A stretch of DNA of 32,337 nucleotides from a virus. Within the stretch, counting starts at the first letter, position 1; every line of letters starts with the position of its first letter. The notes beneath the pieces are model-generated. The model was not told the origin of the DNA. It saw only the letters and a program-made list of their open reading frames with translations, and did not search any database. Below are positions 14,825-29,046 of the stretch, in pieces. The stretch covers positions 1-32,337 of the IMG/VR virus record IMGVR_UViG_3300047497_000267. The stretch is one strand, 5' to 3'. Made by a program: the position numbers and the translations under genes.

Positions 14825-15291
14825 ACCAGCACCTCCGCCACGGCCGCCGCGATGCCATCGCCGATCTGGACAGACAGGTCGGCGAGCGCGCTGCGCAGAT
14901 AGGAATGGGCTGGATAGTCGACGCGCCGGCCGTAGGGGCCGACCTCGGCCTCCACCGGCCGGATCGGCCGGCCGAAGGCCTGCGTCATCAGCCGCAGATG
15001 AGCGCGGACGCTTTCGCTGCCGCTGAAGCCATATTCCTGGAAGGCGGCATAGGGCGCCGTCGCGCTCAGGCTCGCTGACATTCCGCCGGTCTGATCGAGA
15101 CGCATCGCCAGCGATGCGCGAAGCGTTCCGGTCCGGGCATTCAGCACGCCGCCGGACAGATTCGCGTCGACCCGATCGCGTAGCCGGGCCAGAAGATCGG
15201 CCGTCGCGGCCTGCACCGCGTTTTCGGCCCGATCGGGCAGGGCCGCCAGCCGGTCCAGCACCGCATCGGCCTTGAGGGTCGCGCCGATCAC
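14821..15291 (-). CDS. Neck/minor tail protein, HK97 gp10-like
   Basis: A 156-residue protein of the gp10-like head-closure type. Recognisable parts are VQAATADLLARLRDRV near the N-terminus, TGTLRASLAMRL, then ATAPYAAFQEYGF, and HSYLRSALADLSVQI near the end. The pattern of an aromatic YAxxxEYG turn followed by a late helix is typical. The GTG start overlaps the connector stop as GTGA (15288-15291), and its own stop overlaps the next start as ATGA, so the three genes are translationally coupled. Confidence 0.8.
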   Translation of the reverse strand: MIGATLKADAVLDRLAALPDRAENAVQAATADLLARLRDRVDANLSGGVLNARTGTLRASLAMRLDQTGGMSASLSATAPYAAFQEYGFSGSESVRAHLRLMTQAFGRPIRPVEAEVGPYGRRVDYPAHSYLRSALADLSVQIGDGIAAAVAEVLV

Positions 15292-15848
15292 GCCAGGTTC
15301 GCCCGCGTATAGCGCGCGATCACGCCGGCGACGAAGGCGCTGACATCCTTTTGGCTATAGGATGTCGTCGCCATGCCGCCGATGCTTTCGGACACCTTGC
15401 CCAGCCGGTCCCGCCCGCGATAGCGCAGGCCCACCAGCTCCACCACCGCCTCGGCGACATCGGCCGGCGCTGCGGGATAGCCGGCGGTGTAGGTCACCGC
15501 GACATTGACCAGGCCGCGCCCGAACCAATGGCCGAACAGCAGGACGATATTGCCGTTCAGCCGCCAGCCGGGTTCCCCCGGCGCCAGCGCCTCCGGCACG
15601 ACCGCCCCATCGATGCTGAGCGACGTCACGGACGTCACCGGCGTATTGCGCAGATACAGCCGCCCGTTGCCCTTGCCGTCATAGAGTTCGCTATAATTCT
15701 GCTCCAGGATCGGCCGGCCGCAGGCGGTGACGAAGAAGGCGCTGGCCGCCGAGATCAGGCGGGCGAGCACGGCGTCATCGTTCGATTGCAGGTCGCCGCC
15801 CAGATAGGCCTTTACGTCGGCCAGGGAGACGAGATCGCCTTGCGTCAT
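15288..15848 (-). CDS. Head-tail connector (gp6-like adaptor)
   Basis: A 186-residue adaptor that would sit below the portal and begin the neck. Features are a helical N-terminus (LADVKAYLGGDL, then VLARLISAASAFFVTACGRP), a beta-rich middle (LYLRNTPVTSVTSLSIDG), VAVTYTAGYPAAPADVAEAVVELVGLRYR, and a C-terminal AFVAGVIARYTR. This layout matches phage connector/gp6-like families in which DvaeAv-v-lv-yryr follows a TAGYP turn. GGAGG lies 6 bases before the ATG. The gene is first in a run of tail genes that overlap each other by 4 bases. The hipBA operator array lies directly upstream. Confidence 0.82.
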   Translation of the reverse strand: MTQGDLVSLADVKAYLGGDLQSNDDAVLARLISAASAFFVTACGRPILEQNYSELYDGKGNGRLYLRNTPVTSVTSLSIDGAVVPEALAPGEPGWRLNGNIVLLFGHWFGRGLVNVAVTYTAGYPAAPADVAEAVVELVGLRYRGRDRLGKVSESIGGMATTSYSQKDVSAFVAGVIARYTRANLA

Positions 15849-15873
15849 GGCTGGCCTCCACGCTTTAGGAATT

Positions 15874-15970
15874 ATACGATATGGCGTATATTTATTGATT
15901 ATACCATTTTCCGTATAAATTGAATTTATACGTTATTCCGTATATTGAAAATTTATACGGCTAAGCGTAT
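15874..15970. repeat. Array of four 16-bp palindromic operators at 27-bp period
   Basis: Four copies of ATACG-N6-CGTAT start at 15874, 15901, 15928 and 15955. Site two has ATACC in its left arm; the others are perfect. The spacing is exactly 27 bases each time, with 11-base AT-rich spacers between the sites. The array fills the space between the divergent connector gene and hipB. It is best explained as a HipB operator array that also lies over the region upstream of the minus-strand tail genes. Confidence 0.85.
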
Positions 15971-15973
15971 ATT
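15945..15973 (+). promoter_or_regulatory. hipBA promoter
   Basis: TTGAAA at 15945-15950 and TATATT at 15968-15973 are separated by exactly 17 bases. Transcription would start near 15980, just at the AAAGGAG ribosome binding site. The fourth palindrome (15955-15970) fills the spacer, so bound HipB would block polymerase directly. Confidence 0.7.
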
Positions 15974-15996
15974 TTTGCGGAAAGGAGTATGCCGCT

Positions 15997-16242
15997 TTGG
16001 AACAGCTCGCCCGCAGCATCGACCAAATCGGCAACGCCGTCCGCCGGCGCCGAAAGTTATTGAAGCTTTCCCAAACTCAGCTTTGCGAGCGCACCGGCTT
16101 GCGCCAGGCGACCATCTCCGAGCTTGAGGCCGGCGACAGGAATGCAAGGCTGAGCACCTTGTTCGCCGTACTGGCCGCCCTCGATCTCGAATTGGTTGTC
16201 CGTGACCGCACGACGGGACCGAGAATCGAAGACATTTTCTGA
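15997..16242 (+). CDS. hipB: HipB antitoxin, XRE-type DNA-binding protein
   Basis: An 81-residue repressor and antitoxin with a Cro/C1-type helix-turn-helix at about 24-47 (LSQTQLCERTGLRQATISELEAG). It ends in a short C-terminal tail (GPRIEDIF) like the flexible end of HipB. The start is TTG at 15997: AAAGGAG lies 9 bases upstream, and the nearer ATG at 15989 is out of frame. The gene sits directly after four regularly spaced palindromes at 15874-15970, which are its probable operators. The stop overlaps hipA by one base. Confidence 0.9.
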   Translation: MEQLARSIDQIGNAVRRRRKLLKLSQTQLCERTGLRQATISELEAGDRNARLSTLFAVLAALDLELVVRDRTTGPRIEDIF

Positions 16243-17534
16243 TGGCCAGAAAGCGCCATGCCCTGGCCGCTTGGATGAACAACCGAAGGGTTGGCCGTTT
16301 GTCGCGGGAGACAAACGGCGCCATCGATTTTCAGTACGACGTGACATGGCTTGAGTGGCAGAACACGATGCCGGTGTCGCTGTCGATGCCGCTGCGTGAG
16401 GAGCGTTACACCGGCGAACTGGTCATCACGGTCTTCGATAATCTTTTACCCGACAATATCGATATCCGGCGTCATGTCGCCGAGCGGATGGGAGCGGGCG
16501 GAACCGACGCCTTTAACCTGCTGGCCGCCATCGGGCGCGATTGCGTCGGCGCACTTCAGTTCGTCCCGGAGGACGCCGAACCCGGCGACGCCACTGCAGT
16601 CGATGGCTATCCGATCTCCAACCAAGACATTGAAACGATGGTCCGCAATCTCGGCCGTGCGCCGCTGGGTACCGGCGCGAAAACCGATTTCCGCGTCTCG
16701 ATCGCCGGCGCGCAGGAGAAGACCGCTCTGCTCCGGCGCGACGGCCGCTGGCAAACTCCGCACGGCGCGACGCCGACGACGCATATATTGAAGCCTGCGA
16801 TCGGGTTGCTGCCCAACGGAATGGATTTGAGAGAGAGCGTTGAGAACGAACATTTCTGCCTGACCCTTCTGGCACAGCTCGGGCTTCCGACGGCGCGCAG
16901 CGAAATCGAGATATTCGGTACGACCCACGTTCTGGTGGTCGAGCGCTTCGACCGGATCTGGTCAAAGGAGCGGCTGATCCGCCGCCCGCAGGAAGATATG
17001 TGCCAGGCACTGGGCGTTCCCTGGACACGGAAATACGAAAATGAAGGCGGCCCGGGCATTCACCCGATCCTGACGCTGATGAATGCGAGTAACACACCGG
17101 ATATCGATCGAAAGCGCTTCCTCACCGCGCAGATACTGTTCTGGCTTCTGGGCGCCACCGACGGTCACGCCAAGAATTTCAGCATTCAGCTCGCCGTGGG
17201 CGGTGCATTCGCTCTCGCACCCTTTTACGACATTCTGTCGACACAGCCGAACGTCGACAGGAAGCAAATCCGCCTGAACGGGTTCAAGCTGGCAATGGCG
17301 CCAGGCGACGGCCGGCACTACGCGGTGAACAGCATTGCACCTCGCCACTATTATCAGACGGCGGACAAAGCGGGTCTGGCGAAGGACGATGTCGACGAAA
17401 TCTTCGCCAGCCTGTCCTCCGGCATCCCCTCCGCCCTGGAGCGCACCATCGCGGCGATGCCGAAAGGCTTTCCGTCCCGCCTCGCCGAATCGATCGCCGG
17501 CGGCGTCACCAGGCGCCTGCGCCTGGTGACCTGA
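16242..17534 (+). CDS. hipA: HipA serine/threonine kinase toxin
   Basis: A 430-residue kinase of normal length for the family. Key features are the flexible loop VSIAGAQEKTALL with S153 as the likely autophosphorylation site, the ATP-binding lysine in HILKP (K184), and RRPQEDMCQALG. The catalytic GATDGHAKN motif has D307 and N312, and LAPFYDILS carries the metal-binding D330. HipA toxins of E. coli phosphorylate glutamyl-tRNA synthetase and induce persistence; the target here is unknown. All key residues are present, so it should be active. The ATG overlaps the hipB stop by one base. The pair is opposite to the phage genes and separates capsid from connector. Confidence 0.94.
   Translation: MARKRHALAAWMNNRRVGRLSRETNGAIDFQYDVTWLEWQNTMPVSLSMPLREERYTGELVITVFDNLLPDNIDIRRHVAERMGAGGTDAFNLLAAIGRDCVGALQFVPEDAEPGDATAVDGYPISNQDIETMVRNLGRAPLGTGAKTDFRVSIAGAQEKTALLRRDGRWQTPHGATPTTHILKPAIGLLPNGMDLRESVENEHFCLTLLAQLGLPTARSEIEIFGTTHVLVVERFDRIWSKERLIRRPQEDMCQALGVPWTRKYENEGGPGIHPILTLMNASNTPDIDRKRFLTAQILFWLLGATDGHAKNFSIQLAVGGAFALAPFYDILSTQPNVDRKQIRLNGFKLAMAPGDGRHYAVNSIAPRHYYQTADKAGLAKDDVDEIFASLSSGIPSALERTIAAMPKGFPSRLAESIAGGVTRRLRLVT
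17505..17530. terminator. Perfect 12-bp-stem inverted repeat at the hipA end
   Basis: GTCACCAGGCGC, two central bases and GCGCCTGGTGAC form a perfect inverted repeat inside the last codons of hipA, just before the capsid gene stop. The two genes converge, so it may terminate both. There is no T-run, and a protein-binding site is an alternative. Confidence 0.5.
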
Positions 17535-17545
17535 CCGAACACGGA

Positions 17546-19033
17546 TCAGCCGTTGGCGATATTGCCGATCACGCCCATCGCGAACGGCGCGTAGACCGCC
17601 AGCACCTCTTCGGCATAGACGCCGAATTCGTAGGCGCGGGTCTTCAGCGGCCAGTCCATCCGGTAATAATCGCGCCGGGTTTTCACCTCGGCGACGTTGG
17701 GCACGTTGGATGACTGGTACTGCGCCGGCAGGTTCTCGGCCCAGCCGACGATGGTGCCCGGCGGCATGAACGGGTGGATCTTGACCGGGATCTTGTAGCC
17801 GCCGTCCAGCGCGAACGGGTTGTAGTAATATTCGACCACGCCGTTGGCGACGATGGCGAACGGATTCTGCCCGTCGGTGGTATAGCGCAGCAGCGGCGCC
17901 GAGGCGCTGGACAGAACCTTGTTGGTGATGTTGCGCTGCTCCTGGCTGTTCACATAGAGGACGGTCGGGCTCACCTGATACAGGTCCCACATCTTCTCCA
18001 GCATCAGGTCGATCTCATTGACCGAGCCGCGGCCCGAGCTGCTGAGCGCCGTGCCGGTGCCCGCCGTGCCGGTAGCCAGATAGTTCACATAGGCGCCGGA
18101 GCTGGATTTGAACGCAGAGGTCATCAGCCCGTCATAGGCCAGGCCGGGATTGGCCGAGCAGTCGGCGGTGATCGCGGTGGCGGCCTGCGTTCCGGTGGCC
18201 AGCGGGGCGGAGAAGGTGGCGCTGTTGATCGTGGTGATCGCCTGCAGCTTCTCCGAGCCGGCGGTGCCGACATACCAGGCATAGGCGATGGCGCCGACGA
18301 TCGGCGTAACGGTGGCCGACAGCACCTGGCCCAATGTTACGGCCTGCGTCGCGCCGGTAGACGGGGCCGAGGAGCCGCCGTTCAAGGTGAAGGTATTGCC
18401 GTCCGCCCCGGTGATGCTCTTGGAGGTCGCGACGCCGGCAGTCAGGCTGGAATTGCGATAGCCCTCATAGGTCAACGCCACCGCGATCACCGAATAGGTC
18501 GCCGCCGGCAAGGTGCCGCCCGACCCGCCGGCGGACAGTACCGGCGTCGCCGGGGTGCCCAGCTGCAGGCCGCCATTGCCACCGAGGAAGGCGTTTTCCT
18601 CCTTCAGCATCATTTTCTGGAGCAGGCGCATCGTGGCGACCGCCTGCACATCCTCGAACCCCTGGCCGGCAGACACCGCCTCGAAGGTCACCGAATCCTC
18701 CTCACCGACCGTGGCGTAGGAGGCGGAGCGGGTCGACGTGGAATAGCTCATCCGGCCGGACCGCTGCCCTTCCGGCACCCAGCCCATCGCGTCCCAGCCG
18801 GAGCCGATGATGGCGTTGACTTGCCGCCAGTTGGTCGCCGTGCCGGTGCCACCGCCGACACGCGGCAGCACGTTGCGGATCGGCGTCGCCGCCGGATACA
18901 GGTTCTTGGCCGAGGCCTGCAGGTCATAGGCGGTTAGGCCGGTGCCGGTGGTGATCGTCTTGTTCAGGATATCGGGGCCGGCCAGGGCATCTTTCACCAG
19001 GGCCAGCGTTTCCGCGGTCGTCGTACCGTTCAT
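17546..19033 (-). CDS. Major capsid protein with inserted Ig-like domain
   Basis: The major head shell subunit, about 495 residues. The N-terminal and C-terminal parts carry capsid-like segments such as NVLPRVGGGTGTATNWRQV and MRLLQKMMLKEENAFLGGN, and near the end KTRRDYYRMDWPLKTRAYEFG. Between about residues 165 and 305 there is a Ser/Thr/Gly-rich beta domain (AATYSVIAVALTYEGYRN, then GADGNTFTLN, then AYAWYVGTAG). It resembles an Ig or FN3-like insertion displayed on the capsid surface. The start at 19033 (MNGTTT) is chosen for the GGAG 9 bases upstream; ATGs at 19051 and 19048 are alternatives. It converges on hipA, sharing the palindrome at 17505-17530. Confidence 0.88.
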   Translation of the reverse strand: MNGTTTAETLALVKDALAGPDILNKTITTGTGLTAYDLQASAKNLYPAATPIRNVLPRVGGGTGTATNWRQVNAIIGSGWDAMGWVPEGQRSGRMSYSTSTRSASYATVGEEDSVTFEAVSAGQGFEDVQAVATMRLLQKMMLKEENAFLGGNGGLQLGTPATPVLSAGGSGGTLPAATYSVIAVALTYEGYRNSSLTAGVATSKSITGADGNTFTLNGGSSAPSTGATQAVTLGQVLSATVTPIVGAIAYAWYVGTAGSEKLQAITTINSATFSAPLATGTQAATAITADCSANPGLAYDGLMTSAFKSSSGAYVNYLATGTAGTGTALSSSGRGSVNEIDLMLEKMWDLYQVSPTVLYVNSQEQRNITNKVLSSASAPLLRYTTDGQNPFAIVANGVVEYYYNPFALDGGYKIPVKIHPFMPPGTIVGWAENLPAQYQSSNVPNVAEVKTRRDYYRMDWPLKTRAYEFGVYAEEVLAVYAPFAMGVIGNIANG

Positions 19034-19107
19034 GAATTGAGGCTCCATCATAAGGGACAGGGCGCCTCCCGGCGCTCCCTTCGCCTTGCCCAAGGGCGCG
19101 TTGAATT

Positions 19108-24386: not shown

Positions 24387-24944
24387 TCAGATGGCGCTGA
24401 TTTCCCCGCCGTTCAGCTTATGAAGATCGACGAACATTATCGGCTCTGAGCGACTCCTGTTTTCCTCGGTGTCGAGGATCGTAAAGCCGCATCGCTCGTA
24501 AAATCCGACCGAGTTCTTTTTCGAATCTACAACGACAAAACGGCAGCCGACCCGCTCACCCACGACCGACCTGGCAATACCGACCGCCAGATCGATAAGC
24601 TGTCGGCCAAGGCCTCTGCCCTGCAGGCTCTTGTCGGTCGCGAGGCGTGCTATTTTGATCGCCGGGTATTGCCTGTACCGAAATTCGATATCGTCGATCA
24701 GCGCGGCATCTTCGTCGCCCACAACCACTTCACCGCACACCAAAGTCATGTAGCCGACGATCTTTTGAGCAGCCCCGCCGGTCAGAAACACGCCATAGGT
24801 TCGCGCGAGACTGTGCGCCTCATAGTTTTTGGCATGTTTCTGCAGGAATGTTTTCAGCGGCGTCAGAGCCGGGTCCCCAAGAGACAGTCCCGTGAGCTTA
24901 TCGTCGGGTCTTATCGCGCGGATCTGAATTTCGCCGTCGGGCAA
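24387..24944 (-). CDS. GNAT acetyltransferase, TacT/AtaT-like toxin candidate
   Basis: A 185-residue GNAT-fold protein. The order of motifs matches the toxin branch of the family: FLQKHAKN, then SLARTYG, VGYMTL, IARLATD and the acetyl-CoA loop QGRGLG at 108-113. The VVVD strand and FYERCGF follow, with Y149 as the likely general acid. Toxins of this branch acetylate the amino group of aminoacyl-tRNA and block translation. The TTG start at 24944 directly abuts the stop of the 64-aa gene, and I see no Shine-Dalgarno of its own. Translation therefore probably depends on termination and reinitiation. An intrinsic terminator follows at 24331-24360, so the pair forms a closed unit inside the late operon. 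Confidence 0.8.
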   Translation of the reverse strand: MPDGEIQIRAIRPDDKLTGLSLGDPALTPLKTFLQKHAKNYEAHSLARTYGVFLTGGAAQKIVGYMTLVCGEVVVGDEDAALIDDIEFRYRQYPAIKIARLATDKSLQGRGLGRQLIDLAVGIARSVVGERVGCRFVVVDSKKNSVGFYERCGFTILDTEENRSRSEPIMFVDLHKLNGGEISAI

Positions 24945-27792: not shown

Positions 27793-29046
27793 TCAGTCTG
27801 CGCCGCGATTGCGAGCATCTAACGGAGCAGCGACTTCCTGATGAGAGCCAAAGCTGACTACAGAGTGGGTTTCTGTATCGACCAGTGGTGGAGGGGCACC
27901 CACGAGGCTTTCTCCTGGTCCTTCAACCCCGCGAGCCCGCGCGACAAATGAAAATTTCTTCCGCATTTTCAGTATGGGTTTTTCGAGGCACCACCAAGAA
28001 AATGCCGCAAAAATCGTAATAGGGACTACCGAGATAATGAAATTTGAATACCCGCTTGTGGTAGATGGCAATGCAGCTCTTACTGCTTGCTGGATGGGTA
28101 AGCCATAAAGATAAATCCCGTAACTATAATCTCCGGTGCCATAGATCGGTAATTTCGGTATACGAGTGCAACCGATAAAGACCATCATATAGATCAACGG
28201 AACACATAGAATAGAGTTAAGCAGAGGGAAGCTCAGCCAGCCTGCGGGCTTGATGAGGGAAACTAGGAAACAGACCGCTAGAGCAGAGCCGAAATACCGG
28301 CGATCATACGGTATGCGCTCCCGATATAGATATGCCAGGATTCCTAAAACGAAGGATAAGAAAAGACGAGATCCTCGGCCAGTAAGCAGGCTATCGCTAA
28401 TGTTTCCAATTGGAGTTTCAGCGCTAAGATAAAGCCTTGAAATTCCAACTCCTAATATGGTGTAGGCAATGGCTATCACAACTAAGGTTTTTGGTCGTTT
28501 GAGCATTCCAAAGAGGATAAACGCCGACATGATCGCGTAACATCCAATCTCAAACGGTACTGTCCATAGCGACCAGTTTACGAGATTGCTGGGGTTTCCC
28601 GCGAACACACCGGGCAACTTGTAATGCATGAAGCCGATCAGGTTGCCAAAGTATGCCAATACCTCAGGCGATGAAAAATACGTCTTAATATCTAAATTAG
28701 TAAATATCGGCCCTAATATAAAAGCCGAAAGCGTCAGTTCCAGGAGCAAAGCTGGGAATATTCTTAGGCTTCTGTTTATTAAGAAGTCCTTTAGACCTAG
28801 ACGTTGCGCGCTTCCTGCTATCAGGAATCCACTGAGACCGAAGAACATAACTAGCATGCCATAGCCTGGGAACCAGACTATCGGGGTGAAATCGAGCCAT
28901 TTTGCTCCATTGGCAACTGGAGCCGAATGCCAAGCCACAATGGAAAGTGCCAAGGCGACTCTCAAGAAGTCAAAGCCTCCTCCGAGGCCTCGATTCTTAG
29001 CTAAAATGTCACTGATTGTCGATTTGGAAGCTTGGTATTTATCCAT
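27793..29046 (-). CDS. Acyltransferase-3 family membrane protein (OafA/YrhL type)
   Basis: A 417-residue polytopic inner-membrane protein. The N-terminal signature is clear: FDFLR at about 25-29, then VAWHSA with the likely catalytic H40, then FFGLSGFLIAG. About ten hydrophobic helices follow, and the C-terminal 50 residues are cytoplasmic-looking and Pro/Gly-rich. Members of this family transfer acetyl or other acyl groups to surface sugars such as O-antigen. In prophages they cause serotype conversion that can alter the phage receptor. The gene is far richer in A+T than its neighbours (for example 28680-28800), strong evidence of separate transfer. It lies directly upstream of the SGNH-hydrolase gene, which may act on the same kind of acyl mark. 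The exact sugar substrate cannot be read from sequence. Confidence 0.92.
   Translation of the reverse strand: MDKYQASKSTISDILAKNRGLGGGFDFLRVALALSIVAWHSAPVANGAKWLDFTPIVWFPGYGMLVMFFGLSGFLIAGSAQRLGLKDFLINRSLRIFPALLLELTLSAFILGPIFTNLDIKTYFSSPEVLAYFGNLIGFMHYKLPGVFAGNPSNLVNWSLWTVPFEIGCYAIMSAFILFGMLKRPKTLVVIAIAYTILGVGISRLYLSAETPIGNISDSLLTGRGSRLFLSFVLGILAYLYRERIPYDRRYFGSALAVCFLVSLIKPAGWLSFPLLNSILCVPLIYMMVFIGCTRIPKLPIYGTGDYSYGIYLYGLPIQQAVRAALPSTTSGYSNFIISVVPITIFAAFSWWCLEKPILKMRKKFSFVARARGVEGPGESLVGAPPPLVDTETHSVVSFGSHQEVAAPLDARNRGAD

Follow-up and report, generated by a model that had tools for sequence, protein, structure and literature searches.

The window (the whole 32,337-nucleotide stretch analysed here, a viral contig of 32 kb) very probably carries a complete HipBA type II toxin-antitoxin module that is autorepressed via four operators and is carried as cargo of a tailed phage. 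The four palindromes upstream of hipB are almost certainly the autoregulatory array of this module. We read them as putative HipBA operators because their half-sites are nearly fixed among phage relatives while the spacers have diverged, because the recognition helix of HipB predicts the half-site across the family, and because the last site lies within the promoter. The array, its period and conservation, the match between helix and half-site, the phase of the promoter, the motifs of HipA, and the cargo position can all be read from the DNA itself.

HipB matches the HTH_3 domain (E = 7e-13). HipA contains the Couple_hipA and HipA_C domains, is similar to the HipA of E. coli (4e-98), and retains the motifs AGAQEKT, GATDGHAKN, and PFYDI. 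Among solved structures, the nearest relatives of the two proteins are HipB and HipA from E. coli. As in HipBA type II toxin-antitoxin systems, hipB overlaps hipA (the start of hipA and the stop of hipB share 1 bp), the kinase is full-length with its motifs, and palindromes lie over the promoter. HipBST systems have a separate HipS and a shorter HipT, and what we found here is a single HipA of 430 amino acids. Three features of the window do speak against our reading: operator 2 has one base altered, hipB has a TTG start, and HipB lacks the C-terminal tryptophan of the E. coli type (it ends in IEDIF). The tryptophan is not defining for the wider family, and most alphaproteobacterial relatives of HipB end much like IEDIF. 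The start codon of hipB is apparently TTG in all of the phages that carry hipBA in this place (at 15997 in the window, and in contigs L003 and L004), and an ATG is on offer in most bacterial relatives.

These phages, which we will call slot phages, have hipBA between the capsid and connector genes. They comprise the window and four other viral contigs, which together amount to three lineages: over this stretch, one contig has the very same sequence as the window, and two more are near-copies of one another. Around hipBA, on the opposite strand, are genes for the portal, a protease, the probable capsid protein, the connector, and the tail; hipBA runs antisense to these late genes of the phage. 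Distant phage homologues of the capsid protein are annotated as major capsid or head proteins.

Features of the hipBA region in the window
Feature	Coordinates	Strand	Description
Head-tail adaptor (connector) gene	15288..15848	-	divergent from hipBA
Operator 1 (putative)	15872..15891	.	TTATACG ATATGG CGTATAT
Operator 2 (putative)	15899..15918	.	TTATACC ATTTTC CGTATAA; one mismatch
Operator 3 (putative)	15926..15945	.	TTATACG TTATTC CGTATAT
Operator 4 (putative)	15953..15972	.	TTATACG GCTAAG CGTATAT; between -35 and -10, over most of -10
hipBA promoter	15945..15973	+	TTGAAA-17-TATATT; sigma-70-like match
hipB	15997..16242	+	Xre/HTH_3 antitoxin-repressor, 81 aa, TTG start, recognition helix GLRQATISELE
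hipA	16242..17534	+	Ser/Thr kinase toxin, 430 aa
Perfect 11-bp inverted repeat	17505..17530	.	in last hipA codons; 15 nt downstream of capsid stop, other strand
Putative major capsid protein gene	17546..19093	-	phrog_13692; start uncertain; convergent with hipA

Between the connector gene and hipB lies a gap of 148 bp with four palindromes, which start at 15874, 15901, 15928, and 15955 (spacings of 27/27/27, with cores 11 bp apart). An earlier note on this DNA had described four ATACG-N6-CGTAT sites. The starts, the 27-bp spacing, and the 11-bp spacers are borne out, but there are not four exact copies: three sites are exact and the second is ATACC-N6-CGTAT, with one mismatch. In their long form, TTATACG-N6-CGTATAW, the operators reach 20 bp. 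Because operator 2 is perfect in the nearest relatives (L003 and L008), the window's copy has probably lost one base. No further matches with at most one mismatch were found elsewhere in the 32-kb window or in the phage contigs. We also scored chains of four sites, with any period from 20 to 40 bp, out of 28 paired positions; the best chain in the gap scores 24, and 21 was the highest score among 3000 dinucleotide shuffles of the same 148 bp.

The earlier note's promoter, TTGAAA-17-TATATT overlapping the last site, was found as described, and it is the only sigma-70-like match within 15700-16100. It runs through the last spacer and operator 4, with its -10 in the right half of that operator. 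In relatives, palindromes are 26-28 bp apart and the last one lies between the -35 and the -10, and the window has the same arrangement. Furthermore, among 62 loci whose -35 matches at least 5 of 6 positions, 45 have the same phase of the promoter relative to the last two operators. Short regular repeats could also be iterons or an attachment site, or palindromes that arose by chance. The dyad symmetry of the sites, the promoter phase, the results of shuffling, and conservation across the family all speak against these explanations, to which we give almost no credence.

To examine the family, we collected relatives from viral contigs and bacterial genomes; this sample includes some near-duplicates and many alphaproteobacteria. 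Upstream of hipB, the autocorrelation at a lag of 27 is 0.391, as compared to 0.24-0.29 at other lags. In a search for pairs of palindromes that allowed spacings of 25-30 bp, 94 of the 98 regions upstream of hipB gave pairs, 86 of them at 27 bp, although these are not counts of independent events because many of the loci are related. In controls, pairs were found in 7/98 shuffles and in 16/98 hipA coding sequences, without a preference for 27. This conservation upstream of homologous hipB genes agrees with the earlier note's proposal that the sites are operators for HipB. The strict array of that note is not peculiar: across 93 hipBA chains, 214 of 234 spacings between neighbouring operators are 27 bp (13 are 26 bp and 5 are 28 bp), so 27 bp is the norm for the family. 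(Two loci, L073 and L080, have 26-bp spacing after refitting.) In plasmid modules that are more distantly related, from Paraburkholderia, Enterobacter, E. coli, and Citrobacter, the spacing is still 27-28 bp. We did not see a clear array in three remote families of HipA (the y4m pair of NGR234, Granulicella, and Bifidobacterium plasmids), which suggests that within our sample, the 27-bp rule ends somewhere below about 40% identity of HipA. Our literature search, which did not reach important subscription papers, found no paper that states a family-wide rule of 27 bp.

The half-sites appear to be under purifying selection among the slot phages. Between the window and L003, 2 of 56 half-site positions differ, as compared to 5/24 in the cores and 12/28 in the spacers; between the window and L004, the differences are 7/56, 15/24, and 17/28, respectively. 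Across the family, the half-site varies with the start of HipB's recognition helix: RQ[AG]T goes with TATACG, WQ[ER]T with TATGAT, KQ[SN]T with TATCC, and RQRT with TAGGCG. In a leave-one-out analysis, the helix residues predicted 75 of 85 half-sites exactly (at most 56 with permuted labels), and this agreement in part follows clades. The combination of KQ helices and TATCC is present in separate lineages of HipA, and RQRT with TAGGCG is found in Acidobacteria as well as in a decayed hipB from a related phage. These patterns also bear on whether some other regulator of late genes, from the host or the phage, binds the sites and hipBA is a bystander. The sites do lie at the edge of the late-gene block, but such arrays accompany hipB genes on plasmids, chromosomes, and phages, they track the helix of HipB, and they are missing from relatives whose slot is empty. 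We consider a bystander hipBA to be highly improbable. A general rule emerges: within this family of HipA, the spacing is fixed at 27 bp while the half-sites follow HipB's recognition helix.

Functionally, the best-supported reading is that HipBA represses its own transcription, as its E. coli counterpart does. By analogy to that system, we would expect HipB to bind the sites and repress, with cooperativity from contacts between neighbours, and we would expect HipB to be proteolysed and the kinase to be toxic. HipB dimers, alone or as HipB2-HipA2, would occupy all four sites; when bound, sites 3 and 4 would cover the promoter from -35 to -10 and turn off the transcription of hipBA. The earlier note proposed that HipB would load cooperatively into one ordered filament; as 27 bp is 2.57 turns of DNA, adjacent dimers would be about 206 degrees apart, on roughly opposite faces. 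The fixed period, with its constant rise and rotation, may allow HipA or HipB on adjacent sites to touch and to bind cooperatively. Degradation of HipB would then release repression and neutralisation of the toxin together.

A variant of this reading, which differs in the cooperativity step alone, is that HipB binds each operator independently and that the 27-bp spacing reflects promoter geometry and not protein contacts. Indeed, the promoter elements fall in two adjacent sites, and intermediate occupancy was raised for the HipBST system of Legionella (PMC10653801). However, the 27-bp period also holds between upstream sites that are beyond the promoter, where the sequence of the spacer is free, and the operators of Legionella HipBST, which is of a different family, are separated by gaps of 53 bp. 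We view independent binding as rather unlikely and favour cooperative binding. With the 27-bp ruler, the neighbour-contact model of HipBA repression can be tested by way of the spacing.

Much of this is already known from other systems, including multiple operators, cooperative binding by HipB, arrays at comparable intervals in Caulobacter, and phage defence hotspots. The window's array is a further example of the known multi-operator type. In E. coli, HipB is reported to bind cooperatively to four operators with the consensus TATCCN8GGATA, and cooperative autorepression was reported for the hipBA operators of E. coli K-12 (PMC3376134). The K-12 locus resembles the window in having four palindromes upstream of hipB, in the TTATNC register, and in its homologous HipB and HipA. 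It differs in its half-site (TATCC instead of TATACG) and in its spacing (28/39/28 instead of 27/27/27), so the earlier note was right that half-sites and spacing differ from the E. coli form, but the difference is small and the register is the same. In the family that we sampled, 27 bp is normal and it is E. coli K-12, the structural model, that deviates in operator spacing. In Caulobacter crescentus, hipBA1 and hipBA2 have identical inverted repeats in series, and the intervals between these were judged consistent with complexes of E. coli HipBA and promoter DNA (PMC7029023); three operator sites are described for each locus (PMC8545095). These loci, which we compared by their published description, are chromosomal and lie outside any phage structural block. 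In Legionella, HipB from HipBST binds several regularly spaced sites (PMC10653801), but the gaps between its three sites measure 53 bp, two of the sites are asymmetric, and the toxin is split.

More unusual than the array are the backward placement of hipBA inside the capsid-and-tail block, the cargo slot, and a hairpin at the end of hipA. In most close relatives the slot is empty, with a gap of 24-150 bp between the capsid and connector genes. (In many relatives, such as L141, L204, L159, L169, and L178, a small open frame fills this gap.) In L207 (3823-6001), and also in L121, the same slot holds an AbiLi-like AAA ATPase and a DUF3226 protein. In L204 (4372-5289), it holds a decayed second hipBA, in which hipB is intact (its helix is RQRT, and its TTAGGCG sites lie 27 bp from each other) and hipA lacks its N-terminal part. 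Related phages have alternative defence cargo in the same place, as in a phage defence hotspot, and by these comparisons the capsid-connector gap is a cargo slot, inside the structural block, for toxin-antitoxin or defence modules. Similarly, P2-like phages and P4-like satellites have variable defence cargo between two conserved phage genes (PMC9122126); the slot described here differs in being between the capsid and connector genes, with hipBA convergent with the capsid gene. We infer only that the module may serve the phage as addiction or anti-phage cargo. The HipA proteins from the slot form one clade (100/100) apart from all bacterial HipAs, which reach about 58% identity at best, but the capsid protein of the window groups as sister (100/98) with the one from an empty-slot phage. 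Given these placements in the two trees, loss, gain, or exchange has occurred, and one gain of hipBA would fit as well as several.

The array is immediately upstream of the connector gene (some 23 bp separate the start codon of this gene from operator 1 in its 20-bp form), and the earlier note proposed that it couples persistence control to the late expression of the phage. In this scenario, the array would also hold a leftward promoter that HipB represses, and HipB would gate the connector, neck, and tail genes. For this claim we found the position but no leftward promoter with an acceptable -35: our scan of the window for promoters facing the connector gene yielded none with a -35 of at least 4/6, and neither did the one empty-slot relative that we scanned. 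On the other hand, all three slot lineages have TATAAT on the connector strand at both operator 1 and operator 2, and the altered base of the window's operator 2 creates TGGTATAAT, an extended -10. TATAAT on this strand is otherwise rare: of the 93 first operators, 8 have it, 5 of these being from slot phages or their near-copies, and of all 327 operators, 20 have it. The slot lineages do, however, share common ancestry. Overall, we think that such coupling is improbable, and autorepression of hipBA remains our preferred reading of the array.

The inverted repeat in the last codons of hipA has counterparts in L003 (3482-3507) and L004 (9261-9286), with perfect stems of 11-12 bp. Among the hipA genes tested, only those from slot phages have an 11-12 bp stem within the 3' coding end. 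The strand at the end of hipA folds better than shuffles do in all three lineages (z from -3.6 to -4.9), and in L004, two paired bases have changed together (A-T to G-C), which altered two amino acids. In 30 of 35 empty gaps, a G+C-rich hairpin follows the capsid stop, with a T-rich tail in nine of them, and in phages that bear hipBA this hairpin-carrying gap has been replaced. The hairpin at the end of hipA, which is without a T tail, is not a terminator of the standard kind. Conceivably, hipBA has become part of the phage's control of its late genes: the last codons of hipA would double as a hairpin that terminates or shields the capsid mRNA, and leftward -10s in the HipB-bound array would let the state of HipBA affect transcription of the connector and tail genes. 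We consider this improbable.

Elsewhere among the head genes of the window, an O-acetyltransferase-like gene (27793-29046) and an acetyltransferase gene (24387-24944) are possible further cargo, perhaps for surface modification. Finally, a related prophage-like region in the genome of an uncultured member of the Rhodospirillales (L219-L220), whose capsid protein is 47% identical, is followed by a different hipBA (with HipA at 56%) that lies a few kb away from the tail genes.
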